From NCBI GenBank assembly GCA_016844365.1, contig JAENIT010000007.1, positions 5,303 through 18,057 on the forward strand: a stretch of DNA of 12,755 bases, given 5' to 3'. The notes under the pieces are model-generated. The model saw nothing but the letters and a program-made list of their open reading frames with translations. It did no database searches and was not told where the DNA came from. How positions within the stretch are numbered: the first letter of the stretch is position 1; the number at the start of each line of letters is the position of its first letter. Shown here piece by piece: positions 1-11,532 of this stretch. The stretch comes from Dehalococcoidia bacterium. Lineage in GTDB: Bacteria; Chloroflexota; Dehalococcoidia; SHYD01; SHYC01. Both the position numbers and the translations under genes were made by a program.

Positions 1-422
1 AGATACAGGGCCGCCGGAGAACCCAAGCCTCCGGCGCCGATGAGAAGAACCTTCGAGGCCAGGAGCTTGCGCTGCCCTCTTCCTCCCACCTGGGGCAGGA
101 TTATATGACGGCTGTACCTAAAGACCTGTTCCTCCGTGAAGGGGACAGCCCCGCCGGAGATGGCGGGCACGATGGAGATCTCGTCCCCCTCGTTGACCTT
201 GGTCTCCCTTCCCTCCAGGGTCAGAATGTCCCGACTGTTGACAAAGACACAGACATGCTCGGCCACTTCGCCTTTGGAATCGAAGATGAGGGCCTTGATT
301 CCAGGATACTTCACGCCCAGATCCCGTAACACCTCGTCAACATTTTCGCCATTGGCCTCTATCTTCCCCTGACGTCCTGTGGCCACTCGGAAGGGCCCCG
401 GTATATATACTTGAATAGACAT
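1..422 (-). CDS. CysO/MoaD-like sulfur carrier fused to ThiF/MoeB E1-like domain (3' end off window)
   Basis: This partial gene (140 codons visible) reads leftward off the window edge. Residues 1-91 form a ubiquitin-like sulfur carrier: it opens MSIQVYIPGPFRVATG, has HVCVFVN near 56-62 and ends GDEISIVPAISGG. That is the pattern of mycobacterial CysO (IP..R..TG.Q, then HV.V.VN, then GD...I.PA..GG). After only a few linker residues comes the typical N-terminus of a MoeB/ThiF adenylyltransferase: FTEEQVFRYSRHIILPQVGG, then the ATP-binding loop GAGGLGS at 129-135. Such E1-like enzymes adenylate the carrier's terminal glycine so that it can be loaded with sulfur. The ATG at 422 has a clear ribosome site, AGGAGG, 11 bases upstream. 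It lies 81 bases behind the cysteine synthase, so the carrier probably serves cysteine synthesis, as CysO does with CysM. A thiamine or molybdopterin role is possible but fits the context less well. The fusion is read directly in one frame. The function is inferred. Confidence 0.85.
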   Translation of the reverse strand, partial: MSIQVYIPGPFRVATGRQGKIEANGENVDEVLRDLGVKYPGIKALIFDSKGEVAEHVCVFVNSRDILTLEGRETKVNEGDEISIVPAISGGAVPFTEEQVFRYSRHIILPQVGGRGQRKLLASKVLLIGAGGLGSPAALY

Positions 423-503: not shown

Positions 504-1389
504 CTACGACCGTCCCCGGGACTGCCGTCCCCGAAGCGCGTCGGTCTTCATGCCCCCTGGCTCTCGATTCATAGCAGAGAGACTCAAATATCGCTCCCCT
601 GTGTCAGGAAGCACCGTCACAACCCTCTTGCCGACACCCAGGCGCTTCGCAATCTGAAGGGAGGCATAAACGTTTGCGCCTGCGGAGACCCCTACCAGCA
701 ACCCCTCCTCTCTGGCGAGGGACAGGGCAGTATCATAGGCGTCTTCGTCCTCAACAGCAATAATCTCGTCGATGATGCTGCGATTGAGAACGCCAGGCAC
801 GAAGCTAGCGCCCTTTCTTCAGGACTTCGCCCACGCCAGTTATGGTGCCTCCGGTGCCCACGCCCACCACCAGGGCGTCCAGCTTACCCTCTGTGGCTTT
901 CAGGATCTCCACAGCCGTGGTCCTACGATGGACATCCGGATTGGCCGGATTTTCAAACTGCTGGGGCATGAATCGCCCCGGGTTGGCCTCCACTAGCTCC
1001 TGGGCCGCGGAAACAGCCCCTGTCATGCCCTCCAGCGCAGGAGTAAGAACAACCTCAGCGCCGAGGCGGTTAAGGAGCCGAATCCGTTCCTGGCTCATAT
1101 CATCGGGCATGGTTAAAATGAGCCTGTAGCCCTTGACCGCGGCCACCATAGCCAGCCCGATGCCAGTGTTGCCGCTGGTAGGCTCCACGATGGTGTCTCC
1201 AGGCTTAATGACGCCCGCCGCCTCAGCCGCCTCTATCATAGCCAGCGAGATCCTGTCCTTCACACTTCCCGCGGGGTTCAGATTCTCCAGCTTTGCCAGA
1301 ATCTCGGCGTACCCAGGCCCAGGCAGCCGGTTAAGGCGCACCATTGGCGTGTTTCCTATAAGCTCCAGAACGTTGCTAGCTACCCGCAA
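504..1389 (-). pseudogene. cysK: Cysteine synthase (CysK-type, PLP-dependent), split by internal deletion and frameshift
   Basis: The enzyme would join sulfide, or a carrier thiocarboxylate, to O-acetyl- or O-phosphoserine to make cysteine. The first part (1389-805) starts at a TTG with AAGGTG just upstream and aligns with CysK from its N-terminus ([18 protein letters not shown]). It has the PLP lysine K44 in [14 protein letters not shown] at 71-76 and the phosphate loop GTGGTITG at 178-185. It then stops at TAG after GEVLKKGR. The second part resumes in another frame with [14 protein letters not shown] and continues through VSAGANVYA to [10 protein letters not shown]. In the family about 32-36 residues (the VAVEP...GGKPGPHKIQGIG stretch) lie between these points, and they are absent here. 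The missing length must be 2 modulo 3, about 95-100 bases. The gene starts 21 bases behind rrf2, so both belong to one operon. Either the gene is broken or the assembly lost a segment. Both halves otherwise look well conserved. Confidence 0.85.
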
Positions 1390-1410: not shown

Positions 1411-1851
1411 TTAAATATAATACATGGTTTTGCTTTGCTTCAGGGCATTTTGCCGCTCGGCTAGGCTCCCCAAGGTAGTGGACTCCAGAATCCTCTGTAC
1501 GCCGTCTGTAACGCTCCGCCATATCTCCTGCTGACCGCATTGGCCGGATAGGTTGCAGTCCATACTTCCGTCCAGGCACCCTATGGTAGCAGCAGAGCCT
1601 TCCAGGGCAGACACCATCTCCGCGAGGCTTATTCCCCAGGGATCTCGAGCGAGTACATGCCCACCCTGAGGACCACGCCTGCTGGTTATAAAACCCGCCT
1701 TTCGTAGAACGGTGAGGAGTTGGTCAAGGTAAGGCTCAGGAACGTACTGTCGCTCTGCAATCTCATTGCTTTGAACTGGGCCTTGACCGAAGTGCTGAGC
1801 TAGATCGATTAGCGCTCGCACACCATAGTCGCCCCTCATGGACAACTTCAT
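1411..1851 (-). CDS. Rrf2-family transcriptional regulator with IscR-like cysteines
   Basis: A 146-residue winged-helix regulator, the usual Rrf2 length. It opens MKLSMRGDYGVRALIDLA, as the family does. The recognition region is NEIAERQYVPEPYLDQLLTVLRKAGF (about 29-54), followed by the wing RGPQGGHVLAR (59-69). Cysteines at 92, 99 and 105 follow the IscR pattern (C92, C98, C104 in E. coli), so it may bind an iron-sulfur cluster. The IscR histidine after the last cysteine is replaced by glutamine here. It heads an operon with a cysteine synthase and a sulfur-carrier/E1 fusion, so it probably senses cysteine or Fe-S status and controls its own operon, like CymR or IscR. The ATG at 1851 is preceded by AGGGGC. 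Family assignment is firm. The ligand and the targets are inferred. Confidence 0.9.
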   Translation of the reverse strand: MKLSMRGDYGVRALIDLAQHFGQGPVQSNEIAERQYVPEPYLDQLLTVLRKAGFITSRRGPQGGHVLARDPWGISLAEMVSALEGSAATIGCLDGSMDCNLSGQCGQQEIWRSVTDGVQRILESTTLGSLAERQNALKQSKTMYYI

Positions 1852-3840: not shown

Positions 3841-4194
3841 CTAGACAGCGAATCCCTGGTCATATACGGCTTTGCTAGCGAACTCAGAGTCCTTGTTCTT
3901 CTCCATAGCCACGGTTATCAGCTTTGTGAACTTAGTTAGCGTGGTCTCCCGGCCATCAGAGAAGTACTCGTAGTTCACGGGCGTCCACTCCGTCTGGTCC
4001 TCGGGTACGTCGTCCTCAGCGTAGATGGCGCTAACCGGACACTCCGGTACGCAGGCGCCGCAGTCGATGCACTCATCCGGGTTTATGAACACCATCACGT
4101 CCTGCTCCGTGGCGATGATGCAGTCCACAGGGCAGACCGCAATGCAAGACTCATCCTTAACGCCGACGCAGGCCTCGGTTACTATGTAAGTCAT
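3841..4194 (-). CDS. fdxA: 7Fe ferredoxin ([3Fe-4S][4Fe-4S]), FdxA-like
   Basis: A 117-residue soluble electron carrier. The cysteines follow Azotobacter ferredoxin I closely. C9, C17 and C52 would hold the [3Fe-4S] cluster, and C21, C42, C45 and C48 the [4Fe-4S] cluster; C25 matches the free Cys24. The position of the extra cysteine (Cys11 in FdI) is valine, which supports a 3Fe first site. The block DECIDCGACVPECP and the AEDDVPEDQTEW tail are typical of the long 7Fe group. The ATG at 4194 has AGGAGGT about ten bases upstream. The gene stands alone, convergent with mutL across 34 bases. A promoter and a leader hairpin are described separately. The physiological partner cannot be read from the context. 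The EtfD-like protein in the same window is one redox candidate, but nothing links them. Confidence 0.93.
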   Translation of the reverse strand: MTYIVTEACVGVKDESCIAVCPVDCIIATEQDVMVFINPDECIDCGACVPECPVSAIYAEDDVPEDQTEWTPVNYEYFSDGRETTLTKFTKLITVAMEKNKDSEFASKAVYDQGFAV

Positions 4195-4549: not shown

Positions 4550-6028
4550 CTACTCAATGATGTTCACTGCCTTGGCGGGGCCGTCGGCGGCGGTGCTTAC
4601 CGTGCCCGTGGGATCAACCCAGCCGATGAACTTTCCTAGAATTCCCTTGGAGTCGGCGTTGTCCAAGGTGCCATATCCCGTTGCCAATGGCGTAGTCACT
4701 GCCAAGGAGTAGGCGGCGGTGCCGGCAACTCTTTCCACTACTAGGGTGTAGGTGCCCGTGGTCGTGACCACGGCGGAGAGGGTTTCAGGACGGTTTGTGG
4801 TAGTTGCCGACGCGATCACGGAACCGGAGGGATTGAGCAAATAGAGGTCCGGGTTGTTGCTGGTGGTGTTGCCAGTCCAGCCACTCAAGGTAGCGCTGAT
4901 GGTCCCCGTAGTGCTCACGGTGAAGGTATGGGTCATCTCGGTGGTCGTGCTATTCACGGTGCCTGTGAAGGTCGTGGTGCTACTACCACCGGCGGTATCA
5001 AACCCCGTGGCGGGCCCCGCTGAGCTGGAAGCCACCTGGTCGCACTCAGCGTTGTCCGGGCTGGGCGAAGCATTACTATTCCCCGAAATCCACACGTCGG
5101 TTAATCTGAATCGGCCAAAACCTTTAACTCGATAGCACAGGCCGGAGCCAGTGGCAAGGCCATTGTCGCAGTCGTCGTTGTTGCCAAAGGCATCATAAAT
5201 GGCCACGGTGACCTCATTATGCGGCGGGTTTACATCGACAACACCATCGCCATTGGTGTCACCTGTTATCATCTCAAGAATCGGATCCTGGAGGGATGCC
5301 TTATTACCGGTCTCAGTATCCAACTCGGCGCTAGCCGTGCCCACACTTATCGTATCATCGCAGCCGGTGTCTCCACCCGAAGCGTAGCTCTCGATCCATC
5401 CCGCCAGCTCAGATGCCCCACCACCGCCACCGTTCAGGTCAACCCAGCCGAAGGAGCCTCCGCCCGGTGAGGCGTTGTCGTCCCTTATTATATAGCAGGT
5501 GTCGAGGGTGAAGTCGGCGTCGAAGGCGCCGTCGCCGTCAGTGTCGCCGTTGACCACTGCAGGGAAGAGGTTGGCGCAGCTTGCCGTGCCCACCGCGCCG
5601 ACGATGGTGGTGGTCCGGGCGTTGGCGGATAGGGTATCTCTACCAACAATGCCCAGGAAGAAGGTGTTGAAGTTGGGGTTATCGCAAATGATCCTTACGT
5701 AGGCAGTGGATGTATCGGGGGTGCCTGTGAAATAGGTAGTCGCGTCGGCGCTGTACTGTATGGTGACGTTAGTGGAACCAGTGCCGGGCACGCCGTTATT
5801 GTGGGCATAAGTGTATCCTGTAGAGTTAGCGTTTGAGTAGCTGGCTGTCGCCACCTGGTAGCTCACCGCCCTAACGGCAAGGTCGCAGGACCGCTGCACC
5901 AAGCGCCTCTGAAAATAGGCGTTCCCTGCATCCAGAGCCAGGGCCACCATCGCTATGGAGGCGGTCATCATTACGGCCATTAAGGCGATGGCCTGGCCCC
6001 GTTCATCTCTCAACAACCTCTTTATCAT
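4550..6028 (-). CDS. TadG-like secreted pseudopilin with calcium-loop motifs and a PPC-like domain
   Basis: The ATG at 6028 gives 492 residues starting MIKRLLRDERGQAIALMAVM. This is the N-terminus of the Tad/TadG pilus-assembly family: a short basic segment, then one membrane helix at about 13-34. The glutamate at +5 found in true prepilins is missing. The start has GAGGGG nine bases upstream. An in-frame ATG at 6112 would add 28 residues, but those are encoded by an intergenic repeat, so 6028 is preferred. After the Tad core, FFLGIVGRDTLSANARTTT is typical. Two loops, DTDGDGAFD (162-170) and DTNGDGVVD (257-265), look like dockerin/EF-hand calcium sites. The mature part has eight cysteines. 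Residues about 367-445 resemble a PPC beta-sandwich (DLYLLNPSGSVIAS, then TTGTYTLVVERV). It is the last gene of the cluster. It probably acts outside the membrane in adhesion or pilus assembly. The substrate is unknown. Confidence 0.8.
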   Translation of the reverse strand: MIKRLLRDERGQAIALMAVMMTASIAMVALALDAGNAYFQRRLVQRSCDLAVRAVSYQVATASYSNANSTGYTYAHNNGVPGTGSTNVTIQYSADATTYFTGTPDTSTAYVRIICDNPNFNTFFLGIVGRDTLSANARTTTIVGAVGTASCANLFPAVVNGDTDGDGAFDADFTLDTCYIIRDDNASPGGGSFGWVDLNGGGGGASELAGWIESYASGGDTGCDDTISVGTASAELDTETGNKASLQDPILEMITGDTNGDGVVDVNPPHNEVTVAIYDAFGNNDDCDNGLATGSGLCYRVKGFGRFRLTDVWISGNSNASPSPDNAECDQVASSSAGPATGFDTAGGSSTTTFTGTVNSTTTEMTHTFTVSTTGTISATLSGWTGNTTSNNPDLYLLNPSGSVIASATTTNRPETLSAVVTTTGTYTLVVERVAGTAAYSLAVTTPLATGYGTLDNADSKGILGKFIGWVDPTGTVSTAADGPAKAVNIIE

Positions 6029-6074
6029 GGCTCCTCTCCCCTCATACAGGCGCATTGCTGTACTTGTAGTGAGC

Positions 6075-6136
6075 CCTTCGACTCTGCTATCCACGCAGGC
6101 AGAGTCCGACAAGAAGGACAGGACAGGCTTGTCGAA
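6075..6136. repeat. REP-like palindromic element between tad genes
   Basis: Two adjacent perfect inverted repeats: GACTCTGC/GCAGAGTC (6080-6087 with 6099-6106) and CGACAAG/CTTGTCG (6107-6113 with 6128-6134). An outer pair, TTCGAC/GTCGAA, spans 6077-6136. GGACAGGACAGG lies in the second loop. The CCCTTCGAC and GTCGAA ends resemble short palindromic elements common between genes in many bacteria (from memory). A related-looking piece, CCCCTTCGGCCAGG, lies at 4375-4388. It fills most of the 117-base gap between the second TadE-like gene and the TadG-like gene. Confidence 0.55.
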
Positions 6137-6145
6137 CCTACGCCC

Positions 6146-6565
6146 CTAACAGCTAGTATTAACAACCTCTACCATCGCCTCAGCAGTCTGGGTTAGAGTG
6201 ATGCTCCCGCCCATGGCAGCCACCGTCAGATTGCCGATTACGGGTGTAATGGGAGTGTAGGTTACACTGGCGGTAACCTGTAGGGTATCTCCCAGCCCAT
6301 TGTTAGCGATGATGGTGGTTATCCCACTCAGATCTGGGGCAGCTTGGCTCACCCTAGTTTCTATGCTGGTGGTGGACTGGCAGATCGAACCCCAGCGAGC
6401 TCCCTCTTGGGCAGCATTGCTGAGGTTAATAAGGCTAAAGAAAGCCCGCCCGAAGTCCGCTACTCCCAGGGCCAGAAAGAGGACGAGAGGCATCATAAGA
6501 GCAAACTCCACCGCGCTCTGGCCCCTGCTTGAGGAAATCAACCCTCTCCAACAACTCCTTAACAT
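6146..6565 (-). CDS. TadE-like pseudopilin (second of the cluster)
   Basis: A 139-residue TadE-family protein. The processing motif RGQSAVEFALMMP (about 14-26) has Gly before the cut and Glu at +5, as in class III prepilins cut by a TadV/CpaA peptidase. It leads into a hydrophobic helix (LVLFLALGVADFGRAFF), then SNAAQEGARWGSIC, the conserved region after the helix. A beta-rich tail (TPITPVIGNLTV) ends in a C-terminal cysteine, NTSC. A second cysteine sits just after the GSI motif, so a disulfide is possible. The ATG at 6565 has AGGGGAAGGG upstream, and the gap from the previous gene's stop is 10 bases, so the two are translated from one message. It would be a minor pilin or pilin-assembly component. 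No ATPase, TadB/C or peptidase gene is in the window. Confidence 0.87.
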   Translation of the reverse strand: MLRSCWRGLISSSRGQSAVEFALMMPLVLFLALGVADFGRAFFSLINLSNAAQEGARWGSICQSTTSIETRVSQAAPDLSGITTIIANNGLGDTLQVTASVTYTPITPVIGNLTVAAMGGSITLTQTAEAMVEVVNTSC

Positions 6566-6575
6566 AGCCCTTCCC

Positions 6576-7055
6576 CTACACGCAGGTCTGGTTCGTCTGC
6601 TCTATAAAGGTCTCCGCAGTACGGGTCAGGGTGTTGCCTATGAAAGTCAGAAGGATTTGGCCAACTACCGGGGTTAGTGGGATGTAATCTACGCTAACAT
6701 CAACCTTGATACGCTTCCCCATCTGAGGGCTGACGAGGGGGGTGATGCCATCGTTCTCCAGGTAGGCAACGGTAATGTCAGCGGGATCTATGGTAACGCC
6801 AGTAGCAGCCTGTGTAATCTTATACTGAATGCTGTTGGCAACAACCCCGGCGGGATCCTCGCACTGGCGGATGCTCCCAGCACGGGCCCCCTCTCGGGCC
6901 GCGTTGCTGATGGTTATTACGGTGAAGTACATCCGAGCAAAGTCAAAGATGCCCATGGATACCATGAGCGCAATAGGGATGACCAGAGCGAACTCGACAG
7001 CGCTCTGGCCTCGCTGACTCTCAGAATGCCTACCCCTGAACCTCAAGCCCAACAC
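6576..7055 (-). CDS. TadE-like pseudopilin (first of the cluster)
   Basis: A 159-residue paralogue of the next gene. RGQSAVEFALVIPIALMVSM (15-34) is the prepilin motif and the start of the membrane helix. It continues FDFARMYFTVITISNAAREGARAGSIRQC, then a beta-rich periplasmic part with TPVVGQILLTFIG, and ends NQTCV. As in its neighbour, one cysteine follows the GSI motif and one lies at the extreme C-terminus. The start is GTG at 7055, with AGAGGT eight bases upstream. No in-frame ATG lies near the family N-terminus. It begins the tad-like operon, behind an extended -10 promoter and a CRP-like site. The two TadE genes are probably an old tandem duplication, since the architecture is kept but much of the sequence differs. 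The role in pilus biogenesis or surface attachment is inferred from the family. Confidence 0.87.
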   Translation of the reverse strand: MLGLRFRGRHSESQRGQSAVEFALVIPIALMVSMGIFDFARMYFTVITISNAAREGARAGSIRQCEDPAGVVANSIQYKITQAATGVTIDPADITVAYLENDGITPLVSPQMGKRIKVDVSVDYIPLTPVVGQILLTFIGNTLTRTAETFIEQTNQTCV

Positions 7056-7154: not shown

Positions 7155-9170
7155 TCACTCAATGGCCTCCGCCACCAGCTCTGCGATGTCCCTGACCCTC
7201 ATCTCTTCCGATTTGTTTTTGTTGAGCACTCCGTTCTCCATCATCTGCATACAGAAGGGACAGGAGGTTGCTATCACTGACGCTCCCACATCGATGGCCT
7301 GCTGGACTCGGATGTTCTGCACTTGGCCCCCTACCGGGTCATCCATCCACATGTGGCCGCCGCCAGCGCCGCAGCAGAGGCTCGCCTCTTTATTCCACGC
7401 CATCTCCACCAGGTTGGCTTGAGGAAGGGCATTGACCACACTCCTGGGAGCATCAAAGACCTGGTTGTAGCGACCCAGATAGCAAGGATCGTGGTAAGTG
7501 ACCTTTCCGTCCAGGCCAATGTCTTTGGTTAGCTTCAGCTTGCCCTGCTGTATGAGCTGCTCTATGAGCTGGCTGTGGTGAATGACCTCATAGTTACCCT
7601 CAAACTGGGGGTATTCGTTCATTATGGTGTTGAAGCAGTGGGGGCACTGGGTGATGATCTTCTTAACTTTACGGCTGTTAAGCATCTCTATTACCTGCAT
7701 AGCTTGCGTCTGGTATAGATATTCATTACCCATACGTCGCGCCGGGTCCCCAGTGCAGGTCTCCATAGCCCCCAGGACTCCGAAGTTCACTCCTGCGGCT
7801 TTAAGTATCTTTATTACATCCAAGGTGATCTTGCGGCTCCGCTCCTCCAGAGCTCCAGTGCAGCCTACCCAATACAGGTACTCCATCTCATCACCGGAGG
7901 TGAACTCAGGGACTTCCAGGCCCTCCATCAAGTCGCCCCGTACATACTGAGTGCCCCGCCACGGGTGGCCACGCCGTTCTATATTTATGAGGGCATTCTG
8001 GGCTGTCTCAGGAATCCTGCCTTCATTGAGGACGAAATTCCTTCTCATGTCCACTATCTTGGGCACGTGTTCGATAAAGACCGGGCATACGGCCTGACAG
8101 GCAAAGCATGTGCGACAAGCCCATATCGGGTCTTCGCCAGCAGCCCCCTTGTCCATAGGCTCCCGCTCTCCGCCCTCTTGAAGGAGCAGTTTATAGCCCT
8201 CTTCATGAAGGTGGTCCTGGAACTCCAGGATCAAGTGTTTGGGGGAAAGGGGCGTGCCACTCAAGTTGGCAGGACACACTGAGGTGCACCGGCCACACTC
8301 GGTGCAATTGTACAAATCCAGCATGTCTTTCCAACTGAAGTCCTCCAGGCGAGTGAGACCAAGGGTCTCAGCATTTTCGAGGTCTATAGGCCGTAAAGCG
8401 CCCCTGGGGCCCAGGTTCCTGAAGAAAACGTTAAAGGACGAGGCGAAGACGTGCAGATGTTTCGAGCGAGGAATATATACCAGGAACCCTAAAAGAATAC
8501 CCACATGTAGCCACCAGAAGAGGCTGAAGGATACGTATTGAACCCCTTTACTCAGTCCGAGGCCGTCAAAGATTTCGGCCATCACCAGGCCTCCAGGAGA
8601 CCACGAAACCAGGCCGTGCTCTCCCTCAAGTTGAGCTATAGAGAGCCTGTGGCCGTCCACGAGAAAATCCGTGAACATAAGTCCGAACAGCAGCGACAGG
8701 ATCACTGCCGCCGTAACTCCTCCACCCTTTAGCCGGGGAAGATGCTCTATATACCTGCGGTAAGACGCCATAAGCACCCCTAGGATCACGAAAGCCTGGA
8801 AAATACCCCAGACAGAAGAGAGAGGAAGATATATACCGTGGGGGATGTACTCCCTCCCTACGAATCCTGAGATAATAAAGTTGAGGTTCTGCAGCAACAG
8901 CACCATAAACCCCCAGAAGATGAGGGCGTGCATAGTCCCCGAAAACGGATCCCTAAAGAAGAGCCGTTTCTGGCCAAAGACATATATAATAACGGACTTG
9001 ATCCGTTCGCCAATGCGATCAAATCTAGGGTCGCTCTTTTTCCCTTTGCGCATGTATCGGATCTTTGTTATGACGGAATCAGCGAACAGGTAGAGGCCCG
9101 CTATAGTAACTAGAGCCAGTAGTAGTCGGCCAGGGATGAAGCCCAGGTAGGTGTCTATGGTAGGGACCAT
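7155..9170 (-). CDS. etfD: EtfD-like membrane iron-sulfur oxidoreductase (ETF:menaquinone)
   Basis: A 671-residue membrane protein in three parts. Residues 1-240 hold five to six membrane helices in a NarI-like arrangement, with histidines that could bind haem (H81, H222). Then come two 4Fe-4S motifs: C289, C292, C295, C299 (CTECGRCTSVCP) and C352, C355, C358, C362 (CRTCFACQAVCP). The C-terminal half has two CCG domains like HdrD/GlpC. The first has C437, C472 in ETCTGDPARR, C509 and C512. The second has C563, C599, C600, C637 and C640. The first CCG reads CTG, which I recall as normal for this subfamily. In Mycobacterium and fatty-acid-degrading anaerobes such proteins pass electrons from EtfAB to menaquinone. 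No etfAB or acyl-CoA dehydrogenase gene is in the window, so the donor is unproven. The ATG at 9170 has AGGAGGG upstream. It is divergent from the protease gene. Confidence 0.88.
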   Translation of the reverse strand: MVPTIDTYLGFIPGRLLLALVTIAGLYLFADSVITKIRYMRKGKKSDPRFDRIGERIKSVIIYVFGQKRLFFRDPFSGTMHALIFWGFMVLLLQNLNFIISGFVGREYIPHGIYLPLSSVWGIFQAFVILGVLMASYRRYIEHLPRLKGGGVTAAVILSLLFGLMFTDFLVDGHRLSIAQLEGEHGLVSWSPGGLVMAEIFDGLGLSKGVQYVSFSLFWWLHVGILLGFLVYIPRSKHLHVFASSFNVFFRNLGPRGALRPIDLENAETLGLTRLEDFSWKDMLDLYNCTECGRCTSVCPANLSGTPLSPKHLILEFQDHLHEEGYKLLLQEGGEREPMDKGAAGEDPIWACRTCFACQAVCPVFIEHVPKIVDMRRNFVLNEGRIPETAQNALINIERRGHPWRGTQYVRGDLMEGLEVPEFTSGDEMEYLYWVGCTGALEERSRKITLDVIKILKAAGVNFGVLGAMETCTGDPARRMGNEYLYQTQAMQVIEMLNSRKVKKIITQCPHCFNTIMNEYPQFEGNYEVIHHSQLIEQLIQQGKLKLTKDIGLDGKVTYHDPCYLGRYNQVFDAPRSVVNALPQANLVEMAWNKEASLCCGAGGGHMWMDDPVGGQVQNIRVQQAIDVGASVIATSCPFCMQMMENGVLNKNKSEEMRVRDIAELVAEAIE

Positions 9171-9324: not shown

Positions 9325-9354
9325 GGTGTTCGATTCCCCCCGAACATCTTGTTC

Positions 9355-11097
9355 ATGAGCAATAAACTCTCAACTACACTGATAAGCATAATAGCTGTTG
9401 CGGCCCTGGTGTTACTACAGATCCCGCCAGTGGCAGCCGTTACCTCGTTATTGGCAATAGAACCCGATGGCTCCAGTGCTTCTCCCATCTTTGACCCGAA
9501 GGTGTGGGAGATAATTCCCCTCGGCGGGATACCCGGGAACAAAGCTCCAGAAAAGCTGGACACCCCTCTGGCCGAGCTAAGCCAGGCCCTCTCCACTGGT
9601 GGAATCACCACTATGACAGCGGTAGCCCACACCCGAGGACTGAAGCTGGAGGGCGACGGCGTAAGGATAGTAGTTGTAAGCGAAGGGGACTCGGTGGAAC
9701 CCCTCACCCCAAAGCTTGGTGAGATGGGAGTTCAACTAGAGAGCGTCTACGAAAACCTTCTCCAGGCTATCGTGCCCGTTGCTAAGCTGGAAGCGGTGAG
9801 CCAGCTTCCGGGAGTAAGTTATCTTCGTAACCCCTTTAGCCCCGTTCCTGCCGCCGTAATGAGCGAAGGTGTGGCTAGCGCCGGAATCCAACCCTGGCAA
9901 TCCGCCGGATTCAGAGGAAGGGACGTGAAGGTCGGCGTGGTAGACGTGGGGTACAACGAGTACCAAGACAGGCTAGGCGTAGACTTGCCCTCAAACGTAA
10001 TCGCCAAGTCATGGCGCAGCGACGGTGACATCACTGGCGCCGGAAGCGGCCATGGGACCGCTGTGGCGGAGATAGTGTACGACATGGCCCCAGAGGCTCA
10101 GCTCTATCTCGCCAACTTCGGCACCGAGGTGGAGTTCGGCTCAGCAGTGAACTGGCTCATTGAGCAACGGGTGGAGATCATAGTCAGCGCTATTGGCTGG
10201 CCAGCGACCGGCCCCGGTGACGGCACGGGCAGTATTGCCAATATAGTTAAGACAGCCAAAGATAGGGGCGCTCTATGGGTGCAAGCCGCAGGCAACTTCG
10301 GGAGCACCCACTGGGCCGGCCGTTTTCGCGACACCAACGGCAACGGCTACCACGAATTTGTCCTGGGTGACGAGGGCAACACCATCACCCTGGCCCGCAG
10401 TGGCAGGGGGGAGCTTATCTACCGCATCGAGATAATACTGACCTGGGACGATTGGGACACCTACACCAACGATTATGATCTGTTTCTACTTAAAGGGGAC
10501 AGCGTTGTAGCCCAGTCCACCGCTTTCCAAAACGGACAGTTCCCCCCCGTGGAGCGGATTGTCCACGTTACTCCTTCTTCCGGCGACTATTGGATCGCCA
10601 TCCAGCGTTTCAGGGCGTCGAAATCCTCCAAGCTAGAGCTGTTTGTCACCACGGACTACGGCATGGAGTACAAAACAAGCGAAAGCAGCCTCATTATCCC
10701 CGCCGACTCTCCCGATGCCCTGACCGTGGGAGCTGTGCCAGTGTCAGGCGAGCAGATCCAGCCCTACAGCTCCCGCGGGCCCACTAAAGACGGAAGGGTG
10801 AAACCCGATATGGTGGCCTACGACAGTGTATCCACCGCCACCTTTGGCCCCGGTCAGTTCATGGGTACATCGGCGTCTGCGCCCCATGTGGCGGGGGCGG
10901 CGGCCCTGATTAAACAGGCGCTCCCCTGGTACACTCCTGCGCAAATACAAGCCCTCCTGCAATCCAGAGCTATACAACTGCCATCCGCCCCTCCTGGCAA
11001 AAACAACTCGTCCGGGGCAGGAAGGTTGGACTTAGGCCAACCACCTCCTCGATCCCTTCTGCCCCTGATAGTCAACGGTGCCACTCTGCCACCCTAG
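9355..11097 (+). CDS. Secreted subtilisin-like S8 serine protease with a PPC-like insert
   Basis: A 580-residue extracellular protease from the ATG at 9355; an in-frame TTG lies two codons upstream. A signal peptide covers about 1-29, with a likely cut after PPVAA. Residues about 100-165 (VRIVVVSEGDS, then LPGVSYLRNPFSP) look like an inhibitor propeptide. The catalytic triad is D197 (VGVVDVGY), H233 (GSGHGTAVAE) and S506 (GTSASAPHVAG), with oxyanion N314 (QAAGN). Between N314 and the serine region, about 320-435 form a beta-rich insert. Its NDYDLFLLKGDSVVAQS and SGDYWIAIQRF motifs resemble a PPC domain, and DTNGNGYHEF may bind calcium. The C-terminus is a Pro-rich linker then RSLLPLIVNGATLPP, similar to the LPL-type tails I associate with Chloroflexota exoproteins. 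No Shine-Dalgarno sequence is seen. It is followed by a zincin gene on the same strand, with a 75-base gap. Confidence 0.92.
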   Translation: MSNKLSTTLISIIAVAALVLLQIPPVAAVTSLLAIEPDGSSASPIFDPKVWEIIPLGGIPGNKAPEKLDTPLAELSQALSTGGITTMTAVAHTRGLKLEGDGVRIVVVSEGDSVEPLTPKLGEMGVQLESVYENLLQAIVPVAKLEAVSQLPGVSYLRNPFSPVPAAVMSEGVASAGIQPWQSAGFRGRDVKVGVVDVGYNEYQDRLGVDLPSNVIAKSWRSDGDITGAGSGHGTAVAEIVYDMAPEAQLYLANFGTEVEFGSAVNWLIEQRVEIIVSAIGWPATGPGDGTGSIANIVKTAKDRGALWVQAAGNFGSTHWAGRFRDTNGNGYHEFVLGDEGNTITLARSGRGELIYRIEIILTWDDWDTYTNDYDLFLLKGDSVVAQSTAFQNGQFPPVERIVHVTPSSGDYWIAIQRFRASKSSKLELFVTTDYGMEYKTSESSLIIPADSPDALTVGAVPVSGEQIQPYSSRGPTKDGRVKPDMVAYDSVSTATFGPGQFMGTSASAPHVAGAAALIKQALPWYTPAQIQALLQSRAIQLPSAPPGKNNSSGAGRLDLGQPPPRSLLPLIVNGATLPP

Positions 11098-11172
11098 CCT
11101 CCCAACGACCTCATCGAAAGAGACTCCGTGATCTCATCACCCCTGTCTGAATGACCCAGGAGGCGGAGAGAA

Positions 11173-11532
11173 ATGACCAAGAGCCAGTTCGAGGAATTAG
11201 TAGCTAGAGCTCTGGAGAGCCTCCCTGAAGTCTTCAAAGTGCGCCTGGACAACCTGGTGATCGAGGTGCAGGACAGGCCCTCTAAACGCCTGCTGAGGAG
11301 CCTGGACATGGACGATGACGACCTGCTCTTCGGCCTATACGACGGCGTCCCACTAACCGAGTACGGGAGGGAGGAGATGTTCAGACTGCCCGACCGCATC
11401 ATCATCTTCAAAGAGCCCATTGAGGAGGCCTGCGAGAGCGAGGCGGAGATCGAAGAAGAGATTCGGAAAACGGTGCTCCACGAGATCGGCCACTACTTTG
11501 GTCTCAAGGAGGAGGAGCTGAAAGACGTTTAG
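11173..11532 (+). CDS. Minimal zincin metallopeptidase (Zincin_1/DUF1025 family)
   Basis: A 119-residue cytoplasmic protein with no signal peptide. It has the zinc motif HEIGHYFGLKEEE: H103, E104, H107, then G110 and E113, the HExxHxxGxxE form. The preceding LPDRIIIFKEPIEE and the N-terminal FEELVARALESLP are typical of the small PF06262 family found across Actinobacteria, Chloroflexota and Proteobacteria. The substrate is not known for the family. The ATG at 11173 follows a perfect AGGAGG at nine bases. It may be read through from the S8 protease gene 75 bases upstream, since no convincing terminator lies between them. It is convergent with the HD-GYP gene. Family identity is firm and the role is open. 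Confidence 0.9.
   Translation: MTKSQFEELVARALESLPEVFKVRLDNLVIEVQDRPSKRLLRSLDMDDDDLLFGLYDGVPLTEYGREEMFRLPDRIIIFKEPIEEACESEAEIEEEIRKTVLHEIGHYFGLKEEELKDV

Follow-up and report, generated by a model that had tools for sequence, protein, structure and literature searches.

The question raised by this locus is how a CysO-type sulfur carrier can work when the Gly-Gly of its tail is buried inside a longer polypeptide. In the window, by which we mean the whole stretch of 12,755 nucleotides analysed, a single open frame (positions 3..422, minus strand; 140 aa, ATG start, containing SIVPAISGGAVPFTEEQVFRYSRHIILPQVGGRGQRKLLASKVLLIGAGGLGSPAALY) is still open at the window and contig edge, and the 3′ part of this Ubl-E1 fusion gene is absent at the contig end. 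Its first domain (residues 1-91, positions 150..422, minus strand) is a CysO/MoaD-type carrier with the ThiS/MoaD beta-grasp fold: it matches the Pfam profile ThiS (PF02597) at residues 5-91 (E 9.1e-13), and the nearest solved structures are mycobacterial CysO (3dwg_C, 2.9e-11) and a ThiS/MoaD family protein (4n6e_B, 3e-11). The strands and helices of this domain are likewise present in the predicted model of a relative, P0121. The carrier ends in PAISGG (residues 86-91), the codons of Gly90-Gly91, the presumed cleavage and activation site, occupying positions 150..155 (minus strand). It is followed by AVPFTEEQ and a MoeB/ThiF (E1) domain; counted from Gly-Gly to the RYSRH motif, the linker, of variable length in relatives, reads AVPFTEEQVF (120..149, minus strand). 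Only the start of the E1 domain (3..119, minus strand) is encoded, matching the Pfam profile ThiF (PF00899) at residues 103-140 (E 4.7e-9); owing to the contig end, this match covers just the first 38 positions of the 238 in the profile. The nearest solved structures for this second half are Uba4, ThiF, and MoeB, and the ThiF domain is complete in P0121 (residues 103-337). The first-pass annotation, which had described a CysO-type carrier fused to its E1 in one frame with the Gly-Gly at residues 90-91, within positions 100..200, was thus correct on both counts. As translated, the carrier has no free C-terminal glycine, since its frame continues into the E1, and the buried tail is probably freed by a protease before the carrier works in cysteine making. 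More specifically, comparison of sequences leads us to consider it likely that a JAMM protease cuts after Gly-Gly, so that the carrier and an E1 lacking a rhodanese become available to cysteine synthesis.

A trivial answer would be a sequencing or assembly artefact joining two genes, and the cysteine synthase gene adjoining the fusion is indeed broken, so that this particular contig may be imperfect. Nevertheless, we give this explanation practically no weight, and for the family we exclude it, since the same fusion recurs across the class and in a second branch. The window ORF was matched in 292 of 393 genomes drawn from the Dehalococcoidia class, and the fusion frame is open in at least 125 of the 393, that is, 122 among the matches listed, where a fused match is an open frame running from query residue 4 or lower to residue 140 with no stop, plus three genomes confirmed as fused from their DNA (G206, G226, and G141, with loci L175, L176, and L180). 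The closest relative among the matches listed (G059) shows 77% identity. Out of 120 loci taken from genomes, 104 contain a fused ORF, all different and coming from 103 genomes (two in G104), and fused proteins come from other sources too. Protein searches retrieved them from Dehalococcoidia, Chloroflexi, NC10, Methylomirabilis, Blastocatellia, Gemmatimonadota, and Acidoferrum (names as given by the sources), one of them (P0161) carrying the name Methylomirabilis oxyfera. A search with residues 1-140 of P0034 matched 2670 proteins, and among the best 120 of these 2670, 119 were new, all of which continue into the RYSRH motif of the E1. They form the second fusion branch, which we label acidobacterial-type, with members such as P0217, named Vicinamibacterales, and P0257, which adds a rhodanese domain. 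The sequencing error that had been the first concern about this locus is thereby dispelled by open fusions in at least 125 genomes, and the genome search proposed at the same time returned the fusion in those genomes of the 393 and a conserved operon around it.

Several observations made during these searches concern other arrangements of the same genes. A contig scan of genomes with the 140-residue fragment yielded 20 loci, of which none was a true fusion. Two loci that looked like fusions in tblastn (L003 and L011) were ruled out, each being a CysO with a stop codon followed by a separate E1. In other Chloroflexota (G001, G003, and G004; L022-L031), an unfused E1 has a separate CysO-like gene on either side. 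The 170-residue protein P0067 joins an E1 start to a JAMM domain and could be a genuine E1-JAMM fusion or else a chimera created when two genes of the operon were assembled together. The two fused ORFs of G104 differ in setting, L114 lying in a cysteine context and L174, with tail PLIAGG, being more distant. In the second branch (P0208-P0326), linkers are long and hypervariable, and some of them share repeat-like pieces such as AVAEKGPYPFS.

The Ubl-E1 architecture is already published. Ubl-E1-TBP proteins of Thaumarchaeota were listed among fusions shared with bacteria (PMC2948915), and MoaD-MoeB fusions were described in 61/98 Thaumarchaeota, with bacterial cases limited to Rokubacteria and NC10 and with MoeBR forms linked to Acidobacteria (PMC11237513). 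Like the fusion studied here, MoaD-MoeB/MoaD-MoeBR and Ubl-E1-TBP have an N-terminal Ubl on a MoeB-type E1, and the NC10 proteins were recovered here as relatives (PMC11237513, PMC2948915). A Ub-like domain distinct from ThiS was also noted in 2006 at the N-terminus of some ThiF proteins, as in Campylobacter (PMC1779556). With at least 125 of 393 Dehalococcoidia-class genomes, the bacterial range of the fusion now goes beyond the Rokubacteria and NC10 to which it was reported to be confined. The section on MoaD-MoeB discusses it under molybdopterin synthesis (PMC11237513), whereas in these Dehalococcoidia it lies in a cysteine operon, so that both the spread and the cysteine setting extend what was known. 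The published sections on MoaD-MoeB and Ubl-E1 contain nothing on how the Gly-Gly becomes exposed (PMC11237513, PMC2948915), and it is this processing step that we propose. In the open-licence literature, we found no paper on the fusion in Dehalococcoidia, on its presence in a cysteine operon, or on its processing, and the literature searched holds no observation of cleavage, protease, or product for this fusion.

The carrier tail is strongly conserved in the fused sequences. Gly-Gly is kept in 364 of 368 (246/249 ORFs and proteins and 118/119 of the second branch), a count including three proteins that repeat loci of the set (P0012, P0121, and P0125), each with Gly-Gly, and the tail follows the pattern PA[LIMVT][AS]GG in 60/60 of the fusions first aligned. 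In an alignment of 84 fusions (44/101 locus references and 40/86 two-domain proteins), only Pro40, Asn62, Gly90, and Gly91 are invariant in the carrier. The mean column entropy, counted on P0121 columns only and hence leaving out linker insertions of other sequences, is 1.63 bits for residues 1-85, 0.56 for the tail (86-91), 1.60 for the linker (92-99), and 0.84 for the E1. The carrier body is therefore as variable as the linker, and yet the Gly-Gly is invariant in this alignment. A dead or purely structural carrier, its fold kept for E1 stability or localisation, might account for a body less conserved than the E1 and for the four proteins of 130-224 residues in which Gly-Gly is absent (P0034, P0041, P0058, and P0319). 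However, with 364 sequences against four, and given that P0041 at least looks like a single change or error since it shares its linker with P0284, which has Gly-Gly, we reject this as the main reading and regard it as very improbable. The inactive carrier entertained by the first-pass annotation is made unlikely by the same tail conservation, and the loss of Gly-Gly in homologues, which had been envisaged as a sign of such a structural role, is not what the family displays.

The stretch beyond the tail behaves differently. The distance from Gly-Gly to the RYxRH motif varies from 9 to 30 residues in 102 fused loci, and the linkers of the 119 second-branch proteins have 16-48 residues. In most cases a small residue follows Gly-Gly (Ala 156, Ser 32, Thr 19, and Gln 19; n=246), and the end of the linker before RYSRH is moderately conserved (Thr96 in 68/84, Glu98 in 70/84, and Gln99 in 66/84), this end belonging to the first E1 helix (97-107 in the P0121 model). 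In that model (mean pLDDT 88.7, pTM 0.73), which is a single chain and says nothing on the dimer, pLDDT drops under 50 for at least three consecutive residues at one place only, 89-91. A retained Gly-Gly before a linker that differs in both length and sequence is what a cleaved precursor would show, and a Gly-Gly directly before a partner, with a disposable junction, is also the arrangement of JAMM-processed linear Ubl fusions, as far as sequence can tell.

Relatives in which the two parts are separate bear on the same point. Three genomes encode the same carrier subfamily and the E1 as two genes (L177, L179, and L182). In L177, Gly-Gly is followed by 12 residues and the stop overlaps the next ATG as ATGA, behind GGAGG; in L179, 134 bases separate the stop from the E1 domain; and in L182 (reverse strand), the carrier ends in Gly-Gly-Glu with a TAATG overlap, the glycine codons forming GGAGGTGA and doubling as the Shine-Dalgarno sequence of the next gene. 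In the E1 tree, L177 pairs with the fused L073 and L179 falls among the fused L119-L121. This quick tree with long branches, built from 125 E1 domains (69/101 fused loci, 24/83 fused proteins, and 32/35 unfused E1s), contains 12 changes between fused and unfused states, or 10 when four doubtful fragments (P0117, which still holds the end of a carrier, and three others) are unlabelled, and at least six changes are forced by well-supported branches under either labelling. Fused and split forms thus seem interchangeable in evolution, which would fit a fusion that is undone after translation.

The L182 arrangement also invites another explanation, namely that the E1 is additionally translated from a start codon within the linker and that the fusion is a minor read-through product. 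An in-frame ATG does occur in the linker of 64/102 fused loci, and 10/102 have a start codon with a Shine-Dalgarno match of at least 5 nt. The other 92 lack such a combination, which leads us to reject an internal start as a general explanation; the window linker has no ATG, GTG, or TTG codon, and unfused carriers have GGAGG at their glycine codons more often (30/128) than fused ones (8/102). Internal initiation would in any case leave the carrier end blocked, and we hold it to be most unlikely.

The neighbouring genes point to cysteine synthesis. In relatives, the operon order is Rrf2, CysK, fusion, second CysO, and CysM-type synthase, often with a JAMM gene. Counted over the 104 fused loci, each denominator being the loci with enough DNA on that side, an Rrf2 gene lies upstream in 94/97 and a CysK-type synthase in 92/98, whereas a second, free-standing CysO lies downstream in 96/100 and a second synthase in 86/93. 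Of the upstream synthases, the one tested scores 436 bits against the cysK model, whose cut-off is 351. Of the downstream ones, the single enzyme tested has its nearest match in M. tuberculosis CysM, the partner of CysO (2e-87, the next other protein at 1.8e-73), and against the cysK and cysM equivalog models it reached neither cut-off. In the window itself, the Rrf2-family regulator announced by the first-pass annotation is present on the same strand, upstream of the synthase (1411..1851, minus strand; PF02082, 2.7e-35), and scores 109 bits against the CymR model, under the cut-off of 195. The neighbouring cysteine synthase is also there, although broken (504-1389, minus strand) into an N-terminal piece of CysK type (805..1389, minus strand; PF00291, 9.1e-55; 74-80% identity to the CysK1 of the best relatives) and a C-terminal piece in another frame (504..800, minus strand; PF00291, 6.2e-11, and alignment to the CysK1 of relatives), with about 36 residues absent between the halves compared with these CysK1. 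It may be a pseudogene or a local misassembly. The cysteine-operon setting holds in relatives, where Rrf2, CysK, the second CysO, the second synthase, and JAMM are the neighbours kept, and it is from these that we read a probable cysteine rather than molybdopterin setting for this Ubl-E1 fusion.

The second CysO is informative in two ways. It overhangs its Gly-Gly by 1 to 21 or more residues in 78/96 loci and ends exactly there in 18/96, so that these operons make overhanging carriers anyway, and fused and overhanging carriers of the same operon would both need trimming. It also means that the fused carrier is rarely the sole carrier, and the second CysO could be the only working one, the fused carrier being used otherwise, which speaks against the precursor reading. 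Four loci with room have no second CysO (L112, L114, L117, and L174).

The E1 part offers a comparison with the MoeZ of mycobacteria. P0121 contains only ThiS and a complete ThiF domain, and the 101 fused loci with a near-complete E1 encode 360-407 residues, which is too short to accommodate the additional rhodanese domain of MoeZ. The description of this gene as a one-polypeptide version of CysO plus MoeZ is therefore right for the joining of carrier and E1 but not for the MoeZ rhodanese, and it is also too strong in view of the second CysO. A rhodanese does occur in the second branch (P0257), and a gene of one family, the tested member of which is a rhodanese, occurs in 17/60 fusion loci. 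Alignment shows that the nucleotide and catalytic Cys residues are kept in the E1 of relatives, the window holding just the first 38 profile positions. Four conserved Cys of the relatives' E1 presumably form a zinc site. P0121 Arg105 aligns with MoeB Arg14 and, if the numbering of the Uba4 crystal chain is taken as shifted by two, with Uba4 Arg18; the same shift pairs Cys278 with Uba4 Cys202. Of these Uba4 residues, Arg18 is part of the partner subunit's nucleotide site, and Cys202 is the one that forms the thioester (PMC7527816). Since Gly91 is just 14 residues before Arg105, the fused tail would, in a dimer, start near the active site of the partner.

This geometry suggests a way in which the chain might act uncut. 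The carrier could remain attached and insert its Gly-Gly tail into the active site of the E1, acting there as a pseudosubstrate or a docking module and so reserving the enzyme for the separate second CysO. The second CysO in 96/100 loci favours such a regulator, as does the position of Gly91 14 residues ahead of the equivalent of Uba4 Arg18, a residue reaching the partner nucleotide site (PMC7527816). We nonetheless judge it unlikely: carriers of the same subfamily exist split from separate E1s, linkers of 9 to 48 residues are odd for a fixed inhibitory geometry, and the four loci without a second CysO have no such partner, JAMM following directly after the fusion in L112 and L117. A related possibility, which we regard as rather doubtful, is that the fusion serves the whole pathway as a zymogen. 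In the uncut dimer, the carrier of each chain would lie against the nucleotide site of its partner, so that the enzyme is blocked and its substrate pre-docked. One JAMM cut would then switch on the E1, release the first carrier right at the active site in 1:1 ratio, and, through trimming of the overhanging second CysO, make the remainder of the operon ready. If true, cysteine synthesis would be controlled by a Ubl-processing protease.

To return to the precursor reading, candidate proteases are at hand. Of the 67 fusion genomes covered by the JAMM test (out of at least 125), 65 have a hit exceeding the Pfam cut-off; the two others, which may be incomplete genomes, have none (G145) or a weak match (G347). 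In the loci, a JAMM gene lies downstream, on the same strand and within 5 kb, in 26/56 with room and was not found in the other 30. The motif HxH-x7-S-x2-D is present in 45 of the 46 same-strand JAMM copies, the remaining one being a 56-residue fragment, and in L112 and L117, both without a second CysO, JAMM is directly 3′ of the fusion. As a control, strong JAMM matches (E <1e-12) were found in 31/40 genomes of the class that matched the ORF but showed no fusion and in 0/20 that had no match at all, the latter being small (0.8-2.2 Mb) and of completeness not given; six more of the 60 control genomes had only weak JAMM hits over the cut-off. JAMM hence accompanies CysO systems generally rather than the fusion alone, and its presence is no proof of fusion cutting. 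Two JAMMs tested against NCBIfam gave no specific family above cut-off, the desampylase model scoring 62 and 59 bits (cut-off 130). For HvJAMM1, the diglycine is reported to be dispensable in the cutting of linear SAMP1 fusions (PMC8832034), so the conservation of Gly-Gly speaks for carrier function, not for protease recognition. With a kept tail, a variable linker, and JAMM in 65/67 genomes, the JAMM-type cut after Gly-Gly that the first-pass annotation had put forward as one possibility appears to be the simplest explanation, and its interpretation as a whole is partly supported.

Known carriers provide precedents for such processing. MoaX is active only once cut behind the second glycine (PMC4326299), and the JAMM of D. 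radiodurans (DRJAMM) cuts MoaD-MoaE (PMC8832034). MoaX and MoaD-MoaE are, like the fusion, carriers with an internal Gly-Gly fused to a partner that need a cut after the second glycine, JAMM being the protease in Deinococcus, but their partner is MoaE, an enzyme that uses the carrier, whereas here it is the E1 that charges it (PMC4326299, PMC8832034). The M. tuberculosis system likewise comprises a CysO-type carrier, an E1 (MoeZ), a CysM-type synthase, and a JAMM (Mec+), but there two polypeptides provide the carrier and the E1, the latter with a rhodanese domain, and Mec+ is given the task of freeing cysteine from its adduct with CysO rather than that of processing a precursor (PMC3227635). 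Operon class 4c of Iyer et al. 2006, found also in Chloroflexus, similarly contains a ThiS/MoaD-like protein, an E1, a JAB, and a cysteine synthase, with the E1 fused to rhodanese instead of to the carrier (PMC1779556).

Taken with these precedents, the gene product would be a precursor composed of a CysO-type carrier, its Gly-Gly, a disposable linker, and the MoeB-type E1 that activates that carrier. A metalloprotease of the JAMM/Prok-JAB type, whose gene may lie within the operon or at another place in the genome, would cut behind Gly-Gly, so that the carrier gains a free C-terminal glycine and the E1 is of ordinary form apart from a short N-terminal extension. As a dimer, the E1 may then adenylate this glycine as well as the one of the operon's second CysO. 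Sulfur from a separate donor would convert the adenylated carrier to the thiocarboxylate, which the CysM-type cysteine synthase would use to make cysteine. If JAMM trims the carriers, the stop codon after Gly-Gly would be free of selection, so that overhangs and read-through fusions could arise and persist. At the scale of the family, this suggests that in bacteria a sulfur carrier can be produced as a precursor of the ubiquitin type and that beyond its Gly-Gly can lie the very enzyme that activates it; it also gives the operon JAMM proteases a concrete, testable substrate pair, the fusion and the overhanging CysO.

The rest of the window encodes proteins of other types. The minus strand encodes a small ferredoxin (3841-4194), three adjoining genes with Tad/TadE pilus-assembly domains (4550-7055), one of them with a PPC domain, and an Fe-S protein with two cysteine-rich CCG domains (7155-9170), which we take to resemble heterodisulfide-reductase-like enzymes. 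On the plus strand (9349-11532), a subtilase gene (PF00082) precedes a Zincin_1 metallopeptidase gene (PF06262).
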